Shown: positions 21,251-29,306 of the stretch, one piece after another
How positions within the stretch are numbered: the first letter of the stretch is position 1
Layout: every line of letters starts with the position of its first letter
Position numbers and translations under genes: made by a program
Notes under the pieces: generated by a model
The model's database searches: none
Told to the model about the DNA's origin: nothing
What the model saw: only the letters and a program-made list of their open reading frames with translations
NCBI RefSeq assembly: GCF_024346755.1
Contig: NZ_AP024861.1
Span: 3,348,001 to 3,412,000 of the forward strand
Source: Vibrio aerogenes
GTDB taxonomy: Bacteria > Pseudomonadota > Gammaproteobacteria > Enterobacterales > Vibrionaceae
DNA: 64,000 nucleotides
Direction of reading: 5' to 3'

Positions 21251-22999
21251 ATGTTATCAAATAGCCCTTTTAAACTGCCGAGAAAGACCCCCTTCGGCCT
21301 TGGCGAACATCTGACAGAGTGGGCAACCGGATTACGTAAGCTCGATAAATTTTATGCCCAGCGTCCTGCAGGTTGCGATACCAGAGAGTTCTTAAGGTTT
21401 ACGCTGGAAATTCTTGGCATTGATTATCAGGTCGTGAAAGGTGGTCTGGGACATATTCCTGCTTCGGGCCCGGCTGTCATTGTCGCGAATCATCCTCTGG
21501 GCTGTGTTGAAGGTGTGATTCTGGCAGAGCTTCTTCTTCAGGTCCGTTCTGATGTACAAATTCTGGCAAACCATTATCTGAAAACCGTCCCTGAACTGGA
21601 TTCACTTTTCATCGGTGTAGACGTGTTTAAACCCAACTCAAATCTTTCTGCTGTACGGGCTGCACACCGGCATCTCGCTGATGGCGGGCTGCTGCTGATT
21701 TTCCCGGCCGGTGAAGTTTCTCACCTTGTCAAAGACAAACAGCAACGTCTGCAGGATATTGAATGGAGCCAGTCGGTCAGTAAACTGGTCCGGAAAAATA
21801 AAGCGATCTCTGTACCGGTATTTATTAACGGGCAGAATTCAAAACGTTTTTATATGGCTGGTAAAATTCATCCGCTGCTCAGAACGCTGATGCTCGGACG
21901 TGAATTACTGAACAAGAAGTCATCCAAACCGATTGAAATTGCCATTGGCCAGCAAATTCAGTTTAAAGAAATGAAATCGCTGACTGATGAGCAGCTGGTT
22001 CATTACCTGCGTTTTAATACATATTTACTCAACCCGGCCACGAAACAGCTGCGGAACAAAGAAATGGGTGATCAAAGCCTGCCACCGATTGCCGGACGCT
22101 TACCCATCGAAGATCTGAAACAGGATATTGACCGTCTGACCCCGGAAGAGCATCTGTTAACCCATAACGAATTTGATGTGTACTGTGCCCGGCCAGAGTC
22201 CATTCCGGCAATCATGCATGAAATTGGCAGGGTTCGTGAGCAAAATTTCCGTCAGGTTGGTGAAGGAACAGGTTTGTCTCTGGATGTTGATAAATTTGAT
22301 CGCGATTATTTGCATCTGTTCATCTGGGATCAGGATAAAGAACAGTTAGTCGGTGCCTATCGCCTCGGACTGGTTGATCAACTGATGGAAAGACACGGCT
22401 TATCCGGTCTGTATTCCAGCACCTTGTTTAATTATGACCCGAAATTCATTCAAAAGATGGGTAAATGCATTGAAATGGGGCGTTCCGTCGTTGCAGAAGC
22501 ATACCAGCGAAATATGACCTCTTTGCTGCTGCTCTGGAAAGGGATCGCCACATATGTCAGCCGTAATCCCGAATATACCCACCTGTTCGGCCCGGTCAGT
22601 ATCAGTAACGACTATAGTGAAGATGCCCGTCAAATCCTGACAGAAAGTCTCTCCGTCAATTACTACGATCAGCAGCAGGCCCAGCTGGTCTCTCCGACCA
22701 ACCCATTACCGAAAAATCATCATTATGACTGGCATAAATCTCTGTTAAATGCCTTGTCTGATTTGCAGTTACTTTCCCGCCTGATCGCCCGGATTGATGA
22801 TGGCAAAGGTGTTCCGGTTTTATTGCGCCAATACCTGAGCCTGAACGGGAAACTGGTCTGTTTCAATGTCGATCCTGACTTTAACGACGCCCTTGATGGC
22901 CTGATTGTGGTTGACCTGCGTCAGGTGCAGGAAAAAACACTGGGCCGGTATATGGGCAACGAACACGCCAAAGAATACCTGACCTGTCATCAAAAATAG
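21251..22999 (+). CDS. olsF: Bifunctional ornithine-lipid synthase-like acyltransferase (OlsF)
   Basis: A 582-residue two-domain protein. The N-terminal half (about residues 70-270) is a PlsC-like O-acyltransferase with ANHPLGCVEG and later FPAGEVSHL. The C-terminal half (about 300-560) is a GNAT-like OlsB-type N-acyltransferase. The fusion corresponds to OlsF proteins of Serratia and Vibrio, which make lyso-ornithine lipid and then acylate it, giving phosphorus-free membrane lipids; older annotation calls them hemolysins. No signal peptide is present, so it is expected at the inner face of the cytoplasmic membrane. GAGG precedes the ATG. It is a single gene, followed by a hairpin. No Pho box was verified. 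Confidence 0.85.
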   Translation: MLSNSPFKLPRKTPFGLGEHLTEWATGLRKLDKFYAQRPAGCDTREFLRFTLEILGIDYQVVKGGLGHIPASGPAVIVANHPLGCVEGVILAELLLQVRSDVQILANHYLKTVPELDSLFIGVDVFKPNSNLSAVRAAHRHLADGGLLLIFPAGEVSHLVKDKQQRLQDIEWSQSVSKLVRKNKAISVPVFINGQNSKRFYMAGKIHPLLRTLMLGRELLNKKSSKPIEIAIGQQIQFKEMKSLTDEQLVHYLRFNTYLLNPATKQLRNKEMGDQSLPPIAGRLPIEDLKQDIDRLTPEEHLLTHNEFDVYCARPESIPAIMHEIGRVREQNFRQVGEGTGLSLDVDKFDRDYLHLFIWDQDKEQLVGAYRLGLVDQLMERHGLSGLYSSTLFNYDPKFIQKMGKCIEMGRSVVAEAYQRNMTSLLLLWKGIATYVSRNPEYTHLFGPVSISNDYSEDARQILTESLSVNYYDQQQAQLVSPTNPLPKNHHYDWHKSLLNALSDLQLLSRLIARIDDGKGVPVLLRQYLSLNGKLVCFNVDPDFNDALDGLIVVDLRQVQEKTLGRYMGNEHAKEYLTCHQK

Positions 23000-23066: not shown

Positions 23067-23191
23067 GCCTTCCCCCTCATTCATTATCAAATAAACCAAT
23101 CCCCCGTGAATCGCCCGGCTCTCCCCGATTAAGACAGCTCAGTTCCGGTTAACTTGACGCATATAATCATCCGGTGACAGGAAAAAATATC

Positions 23192-24091
23192 ATGAAACAC
23201 CTTAACCTGACCGCCCCGGTTGGCGCCGGGGCAGTGAATGAACCTGACGATGTGCTGAATATCCAACGGGCTTTGAATCAGATTGCTGAAAAAATCGGAC
23301 TGACCACACCCCTTGCGGAAGATGGCAGAATCCTGACAGATAATCATGACTCTCCAACCTGCAATGCTATCGGTTTAATGCAGCAGACGCTGTGTCAGTT
23401 TCAACATCCGGACATGCGGATTGACTGCAACGGTAAAACCCACAAAACACTGGATCTGGCGCTGGAACCCGAAGTCAGCTTTGAAGAGATGTTCACCGCC
23501 GGGGGATCACCTCAGCAAGGACTGACAGAAGATGATTTTCACGCGGCGTCTGAAGTACTTCGTTGCGAAACCGCTGCCATTCAGGCCGTTTCCGAAGTGG
23601 AGTCAGCAGGGAGCGGATTCTTCAGTAACAAGCTGCCAATCATCCTGTTTGAAGCCCACAAATTTTCCGGTTTTACCCATCACAGATTTGATGACACTCA
23701 CCCGCACATTTCTTCCCGCAAATGGGACCGCTCACTTTATCTGGGAGGAGAAAAAGAGTATGACCGGCTGAAGCAGGCGATGGCGCTTGACAGCACTGCC
23801 GCACTGAAATCAGCCTCTTACGGACGTTACCAGCTGATGGGATTCAATTACCAAAGCGCGGGCTACGACAATGTTCAGAGCCTGGTTCACAGCATGGTGA
23901 CGTCCGAACGCAATCACCTGATGGCCTTTATTCACTTCATTAAGTCAAACCCGAAACTACATCAGGCCATGCAGCGTCTGAACTGGCCGGAATTTGCCCG
24001 TGAATATAACGGCCCCGGCTACGCCGCCAATCACTATGATGTCCGCCTGCAAACCGCTTATGAGCATTTTAATCAGCATGCGCATAAGTAG
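23192..24091 (+). CDS. Muramidase-type peptidoglycan hydrolase (DUF3380-like)
   Basis: A 299-residue protein with an N-terminal peptidoglycan-binding-like region (about 1-110) and a C-terminal N-acetylmuramidase domain. Its features are AIQAVSEVESAGSGF (with the catalytic Glu of the family), PIILFEAHKFSG, ASYGRYQLMGFNY and REYNGPGYA. This domain is known from phage endolysins and some exported effectors, and cleaves the MurNAc-GlcNAc bond. No signal peptide is visible, so export would need another route, or it may be phage-derived. I use the ATG at 23192 with AGGA upstream; the longer frame would start with GTG at 23174. The following operon begins 77 bp downstream in the same direction. Confidence 0.82.
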   Translation: MKHLNLTAPVGAGAVNEPDDVLNIQRALNQIAEKIGLTTPLAEDGRILTDNHDSPTCNAIGLMQQTLCQFQHPDMRIDCNGKTHKTLDLALEPEVSFEEMFTAGGSPQQGLTEDDFHAASEVLRCETAAIQAVSEVESAGSGFFSNKLPIILFEAHKFSGFTHHRFDDTHPHISSRKWDRSLYLGGEKEYDRLKQAMALDSTAALKSASYGRYQLMGFNYQSAGYDNVQSLVHSMVTSERNHLMAFIHFIKSNPKLHQAMQRLNWPEFAREYNGPGYAANHYDVRLQTAYEHFNQHAHK

Positions 24092-24168: not shown

Positions 24169-25014
24169 TTGATTACATCCAATATCCGGGAAACAGCGAA
24201 AGCATACGATAGTTATCATGGCATTGGGCTGTACTGTACCCGTTATCCTCAAGCGAATGCCCGTGTACTGAACACCATTTTTGATGTGTTATCAAAGATG
24301 CCAAAACCGTGTCGGGTACTGGATTATGGCTGTGGATATGGTCGCTATCTCTATCCGATCCTCAAACAGACCCAACACCATGTTTATGGATATGATATCA
24401 GCGAAGTGGCGATTTCACAGGCCTTGACGAACCTGAATGAGTTTCAGGAACGAATGTCACTCTTCAACCATCATGAGACACTGGATGATGCACTGAATCA
24501 TGGTGACCATAACAATAGTAATCATAACAAGAGTGACCATAACAAGAGTGATCATGCAGGAAAGATCGATGCAGGATTACTGCTGTTTGGCGTTTTGTCT
24601 CACCTGAAAGGGAAAGATGAACGATGCCGGTTATTAAAGTGGTTTTATCAGCATCTGCACCCGGATCATGGCCGGTTAATTCTGTCTGTTCCGAACCGGC
24701 GACGGCGTTTTCTGTATCATCAGTGGCAGACAAAACGCCATCATCCGGAAATACCAGCTGGCGATATTACTTATCACCGGCATCAGTCTGGCCGGAAAAT
24801 CCCGCTCTATTATCATCTCTATCAATGCCATGAACTGACATCAGAACTGGAAGAAGCCGGATTTGAACTTGAGCATTTAACTGCCGAAAGTTTTTTTCCG
24901 GAACGGACTGTGCTCAATTCCCCTTTATTAAGCAAGCTCGACCACAGACTCTGTGAATGCCTTCCGGTATCTGCAGGCTACGGTATCCTGGCTGTGGCGA
25001 GGAGGCGGACATGA
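24169..25014 (+). CDS. Class I SAM-dependent methyltransferase, TTG start
   Basis: A 281-residue soluble methyltransferase. Motif I is VLDYGCGYGRYL (about residues 48-59), followed by the acidic motif II region GYDISEVAI and LILSVPNRRRRF further on. The TTG at 24169 is the start I accept, because AAGGAG lies seven bases upstream and no ATG gives the full domain. A short Asn/His/Lys/Ser/Asp repeat (NHNKSDHNKSDH, about residues 115-127) is a recent-looking duplication in a loop. Its stop overlaps the start of the SBP-permease gene (ATGA), so it is the first gene of a coupled operon. The substrate is unknown. Confidence 0.85.
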   Translation: MITSNIRETAKAYDSYHGIGLYCTRYPQANARVLNTIFDVLSKMPKPCRVLDYGCGYGRYLYPILKQTQHHVYGYDISEVAISQALTNLNEFQERMSLFNHHETLDDALNHGDHNNSNHNKSDHNKSDHAGKIDAGLLLFGVLSHLKGKDERCRLLKWFYQHLHPDHGRLILSVPNRRRRFLYHQWQTKRHHPEIPAGDITYHRHQSGRKIPLYYHLYQCHELTSELEEAGFELEHLTAESFFPERTVLNSPLLSKLDHRLCECLPVSAGYGILAVARRRT

Positions 25015-26567
25015 AATATCGTCACACCTTCTTCCTGTGTCTGCTCTGCTGTATCTGGCTACAATCTGCTTATGCCGCTGATTTATTAGAAAAAATCAGA
25101 GACAGGGGCGTCATCGTGATCGGCGTTAAAATCGACTATCCCCCCTGGGGAATGATCGATAAAAACCAGCAACACGCCGGATTTGAGCCCGATATCGGGC
25201 GGCAAATTGCCAAAGAACTGAATGTTAAAGTCAGGTTCAAGGCCGTCACCAGTGCCAACCGCTTTCAAAAACTGAATGAAAAAGATGTTGATATGCTGAT
25301 CGCAACCGTCGGTGATACCCAGAAAAGACATCAACAAGTCCATATGGTTCTTCCTCACTATTTCCGCAGTGGTGTCACCGTACTGGCCCACTACAGCAAA
25401 GAGATCCGGCTCTGGGCTGATCTGATCGGGAAACCGGTCTGTTTAACAGCAGGGGCCTATTTCAACAAAACGCTGGTACAAAACTACCGGATAGAACCGA
25501 TTATTCTGATGAGTAACCGGGATGTAAAGCTGGCGCTGCTCACCAATAAATGTCAGGCATGGGCTTATGACAACAGCAGTCTGTTTCACCTGAGTCAAAT
25601 GCCTCAATGGCAGGATTATGAACTGCCGCTGGAGTCAATTCTGCCCATCCACTGGTCACTGGTTACCCGAAAAGATACGGCTTCAAAATCGCTGGCTTCA
25701 TGGTTATCCGGGTTTCTGATCAAACATATCCGTCAGGGGGATTTACTGACCTGGGCCAAAGGCTGGGATTTGCCGGATCAACACTATCTTCAACAACAAC
25801 ATCAGCTCTGGCTGAGCAAGGATGAAAACGGTCAGCCGGTGTGTAGTCACTTCCCTTCCGCGGCCAACCGGGGGCTCTGTTTCGAACCCACATTGAGCCT
25901 GACAAATCCCTCAACCCATACTTACTGGCCATTTGACAAATTTGACAGCGAGTTACTGGCTCAGTCTTTACTGCATACCGTCTTTTATACCTTACTCGCA
26001 CTGATCATCACTGTGGTCATTGCCATCACCTTTTCGTTCCTGACGCTGTATACACCGGCCTGGTTTGGAAAAGCCATGGCTTTTCTCACCCATATTCAGA
26101 GCACGATTCCCCCGATTCTGATGTTGTATCTGGTGTATTTCGGTGCTCTGTCTTACTGGTACGACGCGGGTCAGGAATCGATTCTGGATGGTGTCAGTAT
26201 CTCTTTGATCGTCCTGTCACTCTATGCTGCCGCCGGCATCAATAATCTGGTCATTTCATCCTCATTAAGTGGCGGCAAACTGATTCATCGATACATGAAA
26301 AATTATACAGGCGTGAAGGCCAACCTGATCAATCTGGCAAAGGCTGCCGGGCTGGCAAGTGTGGTTGCTTCTCCCAATGCCGTACTCGTGATTAACAGTC
26401 TGGTCGCCAGCACCGGTCAACCGGTTTTACTGATGAGCCTGCTGGCTGCATTTTATTACACCGAAGTCATGCTGTTTACAGCACTCACTGAATCCTGCAT
26501 GTCCGCTTTCCGGGCCCGCTATGCCCGCAACACCGTCAGTAAAACATTGCCCGGAGACCCGTTATGA
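25011..26567 (+). CDS. Fused solute-binding protein and ABC permease
   Basis: A 518-residue fusion. It starts with a signal peptide (MKYRHTFFLCLLCCIWLQSAYA) and a family-3 solute-binding domain (about residues 25-265: GFEPDIGRQIAKEL, NRFQKLNEKDVDMLIA), typical of polar amino-acid or related receptors. A membrane domain with about five helices follows from residue ~330, containing STIPPILMLYLVYFGAL and a degenerate EAA-like loop (NLAKAAGLASVV). The start at 25011 overlaps the methyltransferase stop and follows GAGGAGG. Binding-protein/permease fusions normally work with an ATPase, but none is in this operon or window. The neighbouring Cache-channel protein suggests a sensory use of the bound solute. 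Confidence 0.85.
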   Translation: MKYRHTFFLCLLCCIWLQSAYAADLLEKIRDRGVIVIGVKIDYPPWGMIDKNQQHAGFEPDIGRQIAKELNVKVRFKAVTSANRFQKLNEKDVDMLIATVGDTQKRHQQVHMVLPHYFRSGVTVLAHYSKEIRLWADLIGKPVCLTAGAYFNKTLVQNYRIEPIILMSNRDVKLALLTNKCQAWAYDNSSLFHLSQMPQWQDYELPLESILPIHWSLVTRKDTASKSLASWLSGFLIKHIRQGDLLTWAKGWDLPDQHYLQQQHQLWLSKDENGQPVCSHFPSAANRGLCFEPTLSLTNPSTHTYWPFDKFDSELLAQSLLHTVFYTLLALIITVVIAITFSFLTLYTPAWFGKAMAFLTHIQSTIPPILMLYLVYFGALSYWYDAGQESILDGVSISLIVLSLYAAAGINNLVISSSLSGGKLIHRYMKNYTGVKANLINLAKAAGLASVVASPNAVLVINSLVASTGQPVLLMSLLAAFYYTEVMLFTALTESCMSAFRARYARNTVSKTLPGDPL

Positions 26568-27202
26568 GTCACTCAGAATTGTATGCTTTAACGCTGTTAT
26601 TATTACCGGCATTTACCTATAACCTGCTGATTTCACTGCTGGCAACCGTAGCCGGCATTCCAACCGGATGGGTGCTCAGTCTGTTGAGCCTGACCTCCTG
26701 CCGTTGGTTTCATCCGATCGCACGGCTGATACAGTCAGTCTTCTGTAATGTACCCAGTTTTGTCTTGCTGTTTTATCTGACCATGATCATGCCTTCTCAT
26801 CTGGAGTTATTCAGCTTTCAGTGGCAACTCTCCCCGCTCATCAAAACCGTGATTGCGCTGGCCATCCCGGTGACCGGCTACAGCTGTGATGCATTTATAC
26901 AGCAGCATCAGGGACACAAAGCCATCACTCTGGCAGCACTCAAGCAATTCTTTATCGTGATTTTAATGGCCTCAACAACGGCTTCGGTGATTGGTGTGAA
27001 AGAAATTCTGGCAACAGCCAATATGTTTATCGCCTCGGCCGGTCACGCAGGCATCATGCTGCCCGTTTATGGCGTTGTCACATTCATTTTCGTCCTCTCC
27101 GGCCTGCTGATTCAGCTGATTTTTGCCATTCTGAAGCATCGCTTCATTCACAAAATCACGTCCGGGACCACCACGCGCGCTCAGGAGATCAATCATGAAT
27201 AA
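26564..27202 (+). CDS. ABC-type permease subunit (partner of the SBP-permease fusion)
   Basis: A 212-residue inner-membrane protein with about five helices, resembling the membrane domain of amino-acid ABC permeases (NLLISLLATVAGIPTGWVLS, MPSHLEL, TASVIGVKEILATANMF). The expected EAA loop is strongly degenerate (AITLAALKQFF), which makes coupling to an ATPase doubtful. The start overlaps the previous stop (ATGA) and the end overlaps the next gene by 8 bp. This implies translational coupling and fixed stoichiometry across the operon. Confidence 0.78.
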   Translation: MSHSELYALTLLLLPAFTYNLLISLLATVAGIPTGWVLSLLSLTSCRWFHPIARLIQSVFCNVPSFVLLFYLTMIMPSHLELFSFQWQLSPLIKTVIALAIPVTGYSCDAFIQQHQGHKAITLAALKQFFIVILMASTTASVIGVKEILATANMFIASAGHAGIMLPVYGVVTFIFVLSGLLIQLIFAILKHRFIHKITSGTTTRAQEINHE

Positions 27203-29306
27203 CCACATCCTGGCATCGGGGCTGACATCCAGACATCTGCGCCGGATTTCCCTGCTTTTTGCATTCTTTGCCGCCGGATTACTGTTACTCAAATTTCAGT
27301 GGCAAACACAGGTTGATACAAAAATCAGACATGATTTGGTGTATCAGAGCATTCAGGCTGGCACGCAAATCAATCAGCGGCTGGAAACACTGGCCAGTCA
27401 GACCCGGATGCTCAGGTTACAGATCATCCGGAACCATCTCAGCGATCAACAGATCCGGCAAAAAATCCGCGACGTGGTTGAGAATACCGAAGGAGTTTTC
27501 CGCAGCGGTATCGCATTCAAACGCAACCGGTGGTCCGGAAAAACAGTACTTTACTCGCCTTATTATCAGAAAGATCACCACAATACCCCGTCTCAGCAGA
27601 TTACGGACAGCTATGACTATACCCGTCAGGATTCAGCGGAAGGCGTGAGAACGCTTTGGTTCAGTCAACCCATGGAACAGGGCAATATGTGGACTGAGCC
27701 CTATTTTGACAAGCAGGCGGGTGCCTGGCTCATCACTTACGCAATGCCGTTCCGCTCAAATTATGATGGCCAACATGCCAACGGCAATGATGGTGTGGTT
27801 TTCCTCAGTATTTCCTTAAGTGAGCTGACCAATAAAATGTTTCAGCTCCATCTGGGAAATCAGGGATTCGGCGTGCTGATCTCAGGCACAGGGAAGCTGA
27901 TTACGTCTCCCGATCAATCGATTATCGGCCACAGCATTTTTCAGTTGTCACCGAAAGGTTATCCACTGCTCAATGCCATTTCCCCACTGTTACAAAGGGG
28001 AGAACTCTCCACATTCATTCATCCGCTAACCGGTCATGAGCAGTGGATGGTGCTCAGGCGGGTCGATGCGCTGAATGCATGGCTGGCACTGATCATTGAT
28101 GCCAACGAACTACGGCTGAACCGGAGTGTATCCACCTGGTACTGGGATACGGTTCCTTTCTTTGCCATTGCTGCACTGGTCACCTTACTGGCCTCGTATC
28201 ATTTCCCGGCTCAGATTCATCAGGCCACCAACCGGGTTTATACCGCTTTATCCGTTTGTCTGTTTTCCTGCCTGCTTCTGCTCTGGTATCAGGCTCTGAC
28301 ACCAAAACCACTCGCGCAGGGACAAATTCTGCTGGTGGATAAACAAAGTGCACGGATGGCATTAAAAAAAATCAGCGCTCTCTCCGCTCAAAAAGTGACC
28401 TTGCAACATGTCCAGCCGATCCGGATAGAAATTCAGTCGATTGATTTGCTCAAAGCCGATCAAATCAGTCTGATCGGAGAAGTGATTTCCTGGTCGGGAG
28501 AAAGCAGGTATCCGCCATTACAAATCGACTATGTTGAAAATATCAGCTGGTCACTAAAGCGCTCTTACCCGAAAACGCAGGTCTGGGAGTTTGTCGCAAC
28601 CATCAAACAACCTTTTGATTATGGCTCTTTCCCGCTCGATAATGAGATTATCCGGCTGACGTTGCTGCCCCCGCCTCATGACAAAAACACCGTGCTCATT
28701 CCGCAATTCTCCAGCTACCGTTCCATGCGGCCCGAATCCAGACCGGGTGTCGCCATTCAGAAAGATGAGTTCTCCGGCTGGAAATTGCTGCGGACTTACT
28801 TTAACTATCAGCAAGCGGCCTTCACCGGATACGGCGATCAGGTTCACCCGCTCAACCATCTGCCCGCCATTAATCTGGACCTGAACATCGTGATTCAGCG
28901 CAATATAACCGGCCCGATCATCAGCCATATTATGCCTCTGCTGGTGGTCAGTTTTCTGACCTACTGTATGCTCAGGCTCTGGACGAAAGATGAAAAAAAA
29001 CAAGCACTGTGGGGATTCAGCACCGCGACAGTTCTCCAGTACTGTGCATCACTGTTCTTCATCCTGATCATTGCCCATGTTGCTCTGCGGGATGCACTCA
29101 ATGCACACGGCATCATTTTTATTGAGTACTTCTACTTTCTGGCGTACCTGCAGATCATGTTTACAGCGATTGGCGCGTTGGTTTACACCTCCGGCATTCA
29201 TGTGTGGGTGTTTGAATACCAGCAGGGGGCGAGGATTAAACAGTGGTACTGGCCTTTTATTTTGCTGCTGTCTTTGTTAATTACCACGATTTTCATTGAA
29301 AAATAG
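27195..29306 (+). CDS. Cache-type sensor fused to a pentameric ligand-gated ion channel-like domain
   Basis: A 703-residue membrane protein with two halves. Residues 17-35 are TM1; 40-312 form a periplasmic double-Cache-like sensor (FRSGIAFKRN, MWTEPYFDKQAGAWLITYAMPF, FLSISLSEL); TMs follow at about 318-336 and 350-367. Residues ~372-570 look like the extracellular domain of pentameric ligand-gated channels: IRIEIQSIDLL as the first strand, FPLD at 479-482 as the Pro-loop, and LDLNIVIQRN leading into M1. Four helices follow: M1 573-595 with P581, M2 ~602-631 ending LIIAHVAL (H628), M3 with IFIEYFYFLAY, and M4 685-702. The M2-M3 stretch resembles GLIC closely. Channel activity is inferred, not shown. 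It overlaps the upstream permease gene by 8 bp. Confidence 0.78.
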   Translation: MNNHILASGLTSRHLRRISLLFAFFAAGLLLLKFQWQTQVDTKIRHDLVYQSIQAGTQINQRLETLASQTRMLRLQIIRNHLSDQQIRQKIRDVVENTEGVFRSGIAFKRNRWSGKTVLYSPYYQKDHHNTPSQQITDSYDYTRQDSAEGVRTLWFSQPMEQGNMWTEPYFDKQAGAWLITYAMPFRSNYDGQHANGNDGVVFLSISLSELTNKMFQLHLGNQGFGVLISGTGKLITSPDQSIIGHSIFQLSPKGYPLLNAISPLLQRGELSTFIHPLTGHEQWMVLRRVDALNAWLALIIDANELRLNRSVSTWYWDTVPFFAIAALVTLLASYHFPAQIHQATNRVYTALSVCLFSCLLLLWYQALTPKPLAQGQILLVDKQSARMALKKISALSAQKVTLQHVQPIRIEIQSIDLLKADQISLIGEVISWSGESRYPPLQIDYVENISWSLKRSYPKTQVWEFVATIKQPFDYGSFPLDNEIIRLTLLPPPHDKNTVLIPQFSSYRSMRPESRPGVAIQKDEFSGWKLLRTYFNYQQAAFTGYGDQVHPLNHLPAINLDLNIVIQRNITGPIISHIMPLLVVSFLTYCMLRLWTKDEKKQALWGFSTATVLQYCASLFFILIIAHVALRDALNAHGIIFIEYFYFLAYLQIMFTAIGALVYTSGIHVWVFEYQQGARIKQWYWPFILLLSLLITTIFIEK

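Follow-up and report, generated by a model that had tools for sequence, protein, structure and literature searches.

The 64,000-nucleotide stretch of Vibrio aerogenes DNA analysed here (the window; contig NZ_AP024861.1, positions 3,348,001 to 3,412,000) comes from a genome of 5.37 Mb in 3 contigs. It carries a five-gene cassette in which a solute-binding protein (SBP) fused to an ABC-permease-like membrane domain, and a second permease-like protein, precede a Cache sensor joined to a pentameric ligand-gated ion channel (pLGIC) (Table 1). A preliminary description, made from the letters of the window, had placed four overlapping or nearly overlapping genes here. All four are present; two of their junctions are ATGA overlaps (25011 and 26564), and the third is an overlap of 8 nt (27195). 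Given these overlapping junctions, the operon genes are likely to be translationally coupled. The SBP-permease gene most likely starts at 25011 and not at 24957, because the former opens a signal-peptide-like sequence (MKYRHTFFL...). In the Vibrio loci that were read, as well as in G380, a genome of another family, the cassette opens with the muramidase gene, which had no match in the three Enterovibrio loci.

Table 1. Genes and features of the cassette, with positions in the window (E, expectation value; TM, transmembrane; aa, amino acids; SAM, S-adenosylmethionine).
Feature	Position	Strand	Remarks
N-acetylmuramidase (PF11860, E 1e-62)	23174..24091	+	gene 1 of the five-gene cassette
SAM-dependent methyltransferase, Methyltransf_23 (E 1.7e-17), TTG start	24169..25014	+	kept in the cassette
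SBP_bac_3 domain fused to ABC-permease-like membrane domain A	25011..26567	+	ATGA overlap with the methyltransferase gene
SBP_bac_3 domain, residues 53-262 counted from 24957	25113..25742	+	E 2.3e-23
Shortened EAA-loop region, permease A	26250..26324	+	about 17-21 residues missing relative to four genuine permeases
ABC-permease-like membrane protein B	26564..27202	+	homology to amino-acid ABC permeases
Shortened EAA-loop region, permease B	26888..26938	+	27 residues missing relative to four genuine permeases and to the PDB 4yms permease chain
Cache-pLGIC fusion, 703 aa	27195..29306	+	Cache domain match plus pLGIC homology and model
Periplasmic Cache domain, about residues 51-300	27345..28094	+	MCP-like_PDC_1/dCache match
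Two middle TM helices, residues 319-337 and 350-368	28149..28298	+	hairpin bringing the chain back to the periplasm
pLGIC extracellular beta-sandwich, about residues 405-569	28407..28901	+	Pro-loop FDYGSFPLD at 28614-28640
pLGIC M1-M4: 572-595, 610-635, 642-666, 671-702	28908..29300	+	DSSP on the model (model residue + 339)

The N-terminal part of the 703-residue protein matches MCP-like_PDC_1/dCache (E 3.7e-13), with PF22673 above its cut-off, which confirms the Cache-like periplasmic domain proposed earlier. At the position of the aspartate that belongs to the dCache motif for amino-acid binding, the window protein has Ser, its close relatives have Ser, Asn or Asp, and the residue is mixed in other members; no conclusion is drawn from it. 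Hydropathy places a first TM helix at residues 18-36, then the two middle helices that the preliminary description had recognised, and then C-terminal hydrophobic regions. The C-terminal half is almost certainly a pLGIC subunit. Its predicted model is a beta-sandwich extracellular domain (ECD) followed by four TM helices in the pLGIC arrangement, precisely the fold on which the earlier channel proposal for residues 370-703 had been made to depend. The model has 12 residues with a pLDDT (predicted local distance difference test score) below 50, and its structural matches to pLGICs span model residues about 61-364; DeCLIC is not among the structural matches listed, which has no bearing either way. 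Homology points the same way: when the channel alignment was searched against the Protein Data Bank (PDB), the 60 matches listed, of 74, were all GLIC chains (best E 5.7e-5), and a 5-row alignment gave a weaker match to a GLIC-GLRA1 chimera (best E 0.012).

Individual residues of the channel half can also be placed. Pro-loop residues P480 and D482 (window numbering) are invariant in 27/27 aligned rows, and the arginine at the ECD end (R569) is kept in at least 90% of those 27 rows. A charge pair between a Pro-loop acid and an ECD-end base is described as universal in the main text of PMC549065, on acetylcholine-receptor-type ligand-gated ion channels (ART-LGICs). The preliminary description was right to see the Pro-loop in FPLD. 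The motif LDLNIVIQRN, which it also listed, is the last ECD strand before M1 and not the M2-M3 segment, and the GLIC-resembling stretch near there is the start of M3. By the alignment with GLIC chains, an invariant phenylalanine (F622) would lie near 13' of M2, and an E600-K601 pair, of a kind tied to cation channels in the main text of PMC549065, would lie at the inner mouth. The register of this alignment is uncertain, and no claim is drawn from either placement.

Upstream of the channel, the nearest sequence relatives of the SBP_bac_3 domain are amino-acid-binding proteins, 1xt8 and 2v25 among them. Its R124 and D205 line up with an Arg and an Asp in those two proteins and are invariant in 7/7 aligned members. 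Both membrane domains resemble the amino-acid-permease model TIGR01726 at scores under its curated cut-off (E 4.3e-4 for the membrane half of the fusion, E 4.1e-7 for permease B). For comparison, four genuine permeases of the same genome served as controls, each pair of them encoded beside an SBP and an ATPase. Against the control profile, permease B aligned at E 4.6e-9 with 27 gap columns at the EAA loop, and permease A at E 9.5e-7 with 17; a MAFFT alignment with the controls gave loop gaps of 27 and 21 residues, respectively, and the loop was retained by all four controls. The sole PDB match of permease B, the 4yms permease (ArtQ; E 2.4e-4), came in two stretches between which 39 chain residues face 12 profile positions. 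The preliminary description called the loops degenerate; beyond that, they are too short, by about 17-21 residues (permease A) and by 27 (permease B). The EAA loop of ABC importers is the coupling helix that docks the ATPase. To judge from their sequences, permease domains A and B are probably not driven by an ATPase, and with the coupling loops apparently lost it is highly probable that the module is no ATP-driven importer.

A matching ATPase gene was likewise lacking nearby. Two amino-acid ABC ATPase queries found no relative among the 131 window open frames of at least 90 aa. The screen also took in open frames lying up to 8 kb from the channel in the window, at the 35 loci of the scan described below and at nine further loci (L105-L113). 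It found no ATPase in the operon at any screened locus, which upholds the ATPase-free SBP-permease pair of the preliminary description, where an operon ATPase had been named as the finding that would overturn it. Matches occurred only in L036, L037, L038 and L113. The last is an ordinary transporter locus; the L036 ATPase gene (PF00005), on the opposite strand, is flanked by a large two-part permease gene and by its own binding-protein gene (both labelled by eye), and those of L037 and L038 have a like place and strand. At L029, L031 and L083, outside the screen, no ATPase gene was seen by eye in the open-frame lists. Between the window and its closest relative, L083, the ratio of non-synonymous to synonymous substitution rates (dN/dS) was lowest for the channel (0.063), followed by permease B (0.077), the SBP-permease gene (0.081), the muramidase (0.119) and the methyltransferase (0.128). 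The operon genes are under purifying selection and, at such low ratios, the shortened EAA loops are not a sign of decay.

The channel itself is widely scattered. An initial scan of genome_contigs (84,980 species) with the single protein found no relative; patterns from the 5-row channel alignment found 35 channel loci, in Vibrionaceae, other Gammaproteobacteria, Methanosarcinales, another euryarchaeote, Cyanobacteria, Chloroflexota, Armatimonadetes, a Clostridiaceae metagenome-assembled genome (MAG) and a Dependentiae genome. Open frames have the size of the Cache form (666-770 aa) at 25 of the 35 loci; one measures 1276 aa, and nine are shorter, some of them contig-cut or broken. A Cache-family match was found in 7/9 relatives scanned (5 at the curated cut-off), the unmatched ones being a 402-aa and a 751-aa protein. 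Within the genus, 10/227 genomes carry the channel domain, as do 10/295 genomes in an order-wide sample that includes the window genome, one of them by a 42-residue match only (E 1e-4). In a plasmid collection, three Vibrio records hold a 51% relative, and THAF64, the one read, has the same cassette. Two variants of the protein were seen in passing: a channel protein of 1267 aa that has two Cache-like regions, each a PF22673 stretch (L040:5088-8888), and two Cache-pLGIC-type genes in tandem in several cyanobacteria (L051, L053, L054, L058).

Where the channel occurs in the genus, the SBP module tends to accompany it. Permease B was found in 7/227 genus genomes (E 1e-20), all among the ten channel carriers and at coordinates adjacent to the channel. 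In 9/9 genomes of the genus with a long-form channel (open frames of 697-738 aa), a fusion of an SBP with a membrane module adjoins the channel, or at least its partner permease does where the SBP gene is unread; the tenth carrier, G158, has a Cache-less channel of 379 aa. The complete cassette of muramidase, methyltransferase, SBP-permease, permease B and channel recurs in G380, a genome of the same order. Its channel (L105:5228-6934) has 569 aa and no Cache match, most of the Cache domain being gone. Since the module is retained there, this genome hints that the module, rather than the distal part of Cache, is the indispensable partner. Order- and class-wide searches, in which the best 8-13 candidates per genome were scored, returned beyond the window and G380 one partial match to permease B (G412), whose locus encodes an SBP and an ATPase of its own. 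Four more partial matches were weak, covering positions about 10-105 in open frames of 297-346 aa. A channel tree of 46 rows unites all nine SBP-permease rows in a single clade (support 100/100), and five changes are needed to account for its six neighbour labels; the tree program warned of weak deep forks and of long branches, including L105.

In V. mexicanus (G001) and G226, the SBP has another membrane partner. An SBP_bac_3-TRIC fusion, found in 2/227 genus genomes, is encoded directly downstream of the channel and, in G226, begins at the base right after the channel gene ends. Its TRIC part matches Gly_transporter PF03458 (E 4e-18) and, best in the PDB, TRIC 5h36 (E 6.7e-10). The V. mexicanus gene (L032:6570-8146) lies in two open frames, one in G226, which may be a natural split or a sequencing error. 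At both loci (L081:2745-8146 and L032:5089-10353) the Cache-pLGIC and SBP-TRIC genes are followed by a gene for a pyridoxal-phosphate-dependent amino-acid decarboxylase (assigned through PF00282 in L081 and by eye in L032). ELIC is known to have amines as ligands, and by that analogy the decarboxylase may make the ligand. DUF2589 genes also lie near the pair (L081:889-2286 and L032:11969-12568). A gene set of unassigned function, one member with Lamin Tail Domains, sits beside the channel in several Vibrio (L029:10181-16249, L031:40-6116, L081:8289-9831), and two of its genes look alike, by eye, whether the locus has the SBP-permease or the SBP-TRIC arrangement.

We consider it rather probable that these genes form a coupled sensory operon in which the ATPase-free SBP-membrane module is a co-receptor of the Cache-pLGIC. 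An SBP tethered to a membrane-domain pair derived from an amino-acid ABC importer would catch an amino acid or related small molecule. It would then pass this ligand to the extracellular part of the channel, or act on that part allosterically, and the channel would reply with an ion current across the inner membrane. The captured solute would in this way gate the channel, which would assemble as a pentamer; the identity of the ligand, the physical contact between module and channel and the output of the channel are the parts of the scheme that we infer. A bolder version, in our estimate less likely than not, would make the importer, shorn of ATPase and coupling loops, a permanent subunit of a neurotransmitter-receptor-type channel: the SBP would dock on the dead permease dimer, and the permease would relay its occupancy or release ligand to the Cache-pLGIC pentamer, a role in which TRIC could replace the permease.

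Other arrangements of the same genes deserve weight. The SBP-permease module could be a passive SBP-gated pore, either a facilitator or an ion channel, with the Cache-pLGIC as a second, parallel channel that answers the same stimulus without any need for contact. TRIC proteins are cation channels, and the TRIC fusions of V. mexicanus and G226 would fit this scheme if the common element is an SBP on a pore; we judge it unlikely, however, as we know of no ABC permease that acts as an open pore without its ATPase. Somewhat less probable again is an ordinary operon of the type described in 2004, in which the SBP just concentrates ligand and the permease remnants are mere membrane anchors. The main text of PMC549065 proposes this role for stand-alone proteins of the type II periplasmic-binding-protein family (PBP-II) in ART-LGIC operons, and stand-alone SBPs of three other families do lie beside the channel here (Peripla_BP_6 in L045 and SBP_bac_5 in L052, both upstream; Peripla_BP_5 in L106, downstream). 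An anchor would not, however, need two permease halves in separate genes, which are retained at all nine SBP-permease tree loci and have a dN/dS of about 0.08 between the two closest loci. Finally, the module might be a working amino-acid importer served by an ATPase from elsewhere in the genome, the adjoining channel being functionally unrelated. Two SBP pocket residues look intact, and a genome with 16 SBP_bac_3 and 74 BPD_transp_1 matches has the ATPases of other systems at hand. Yet an EAA loop that is short in both permeases and kept in the four genuine ones, together with a permease B found within the genus only in channel-bearing genomes, makes this reading very improbable.

Several observations weigh against the co-receptor reading. 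The permeases not only miss the curated cut-off but do not figure among the genome's 74 PF00528 matches, and the permease A profile had no match in the PDB. Permease A of G380 has 8 more residues in the loop region than the other six rows. AlphaFold, given 7 close sequences, modelled the SBP-permease fusion poorly (pLDDT 55.9), and no statement on its fold draws on that model; the evidence for the missing loop is thus the sequence alignment with the four controls. No match to the Pfam pLGIC models was listed for the full 703-aa protein (E up to 1) or for 5 members (E up to 10), in searches where the HMMER filters discard most weak matches. The SBP-TRIC gene lies downstream of the channel, where the window module is upstream. 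In many genus genomes just the best 13 first-look candidates were scored for permease B. Co-occurrence in one genus is also in part common descent, the nine SBP-permease rows being one clade. Finally, 32/46 tree rows are labelled 'none' for SBP, meaning no match to seven SBP queries in the fetched stretch or none in the annotation or open-frame list (L030, L082), with several loci contig-cut; the SBP partner is therefore recurrent, not general, among the channel rows.

The preliminary description had known of no described system with this gene set, a statement that is not supported as worded. The 2004 main text of PMC549065 already has ART-LGICs fused to MCP-N and Cache domains, ART-LGIC operons that include a stand-alone gene for a PBP-II protein, and the proposal that such channels serve as chemoreceptors; a permease pair with short loops is absent from it, and the words 'permease', 'methyltransferase' and 'Vibrio' have 0 occurrences there. 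The Cache-fused ART-LGICs of that text, from Methanosarcina, Cytophaga and Microbulbifer, share with the window protein the order of Cache-type sensor, pLGIC ligand-binding domain and four helices, and Methanosarcina homologues are also among the channel loci found here. Their partners in the main text are stand-alone PBP-II or Cache genes, whereas here the SBP is fused to a permease pair with short loops. The channel type is already known, as a member of the Cache-fused ART-LGIC subgroup; the SBP-tied, channel-co-inherited permease pair with short coupling loops, and the SBP-TRIC fusion, look new when set against PMC549065.

Comparison with solved proteins sharpens these differences. In the structural alignments listed, GLIC and ELIC have 14-16% identity to the window channel, whose M1-M2 linker is longer than theirs and contains a short helix (model residues 261-267). 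Both are single-domain channels with no extra N-terminal domain. The amino-acid ABC importer 6h30, itself among the matches of the window SBP, is likewise an SBP_bac_3-permease fusion; relative to such importers (6h30, 4yms), the window operon has loops about 17-27 residues shorter and no ATPase gene. TRIC (5h36) is the SBP's membrane partner, instead of the permease pair, in two channel-bearing Vibrio genomes, and the solved TRIC-type chains listed, at 212-249 aa, are too short to include an SBP as well.

Other neighbours of the channel were recorded along the way. An eCIS_core gene lies directly upstream of a Cache-pLGIC in a Methanosarcinales MAG (L039:4981-6597). Elsewhere, a channel gene adjoins a gene for a hybrid histidine kinase, is flanked by GGDEF and GGDEF/EAL genes, or lies near a Na+/H+ antiporter gene (L107:4715-10419, L110:3903-8226, L111:5439-9697), all possible outputs of a channel current. 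In the window, the gene at 21251-22999 resembles the bifunctional ornithine lipid synthase OlsF (E 2.9e-126, under the NCBI cut-off). A defence role found no support, as the PADLOC matches were of methyltransferase type and fell on the first of the four overlapping genes alone.

To our knowledge, the native ligands and partners of most bacterial pLGICs have yet to be named. A co-inherited SBP is a direct handle on the channel ligand, as whatever the SBP binds could be tried as a channel ligand. In the permease pair, an ABC transporter core would clearly have been turned to a use other than ATP-driven transport. The pairing of the SBP with TRIC in two other genomes suggests that an 'SBP on a membrane module' is a general companion of Cache-pLGICs. 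Since human Cys-loop receptors are members of this superfamily too, an accessory subunit that delivers ligand would be relevant to the origin of such receptors. Should the module prove a permanent subunit, an ABC importer and a Cys-loop receptor would be hybridized in one complex. The cassette of V. aerogenes suggests a nutrient pump rebuilt into part of a sensor.

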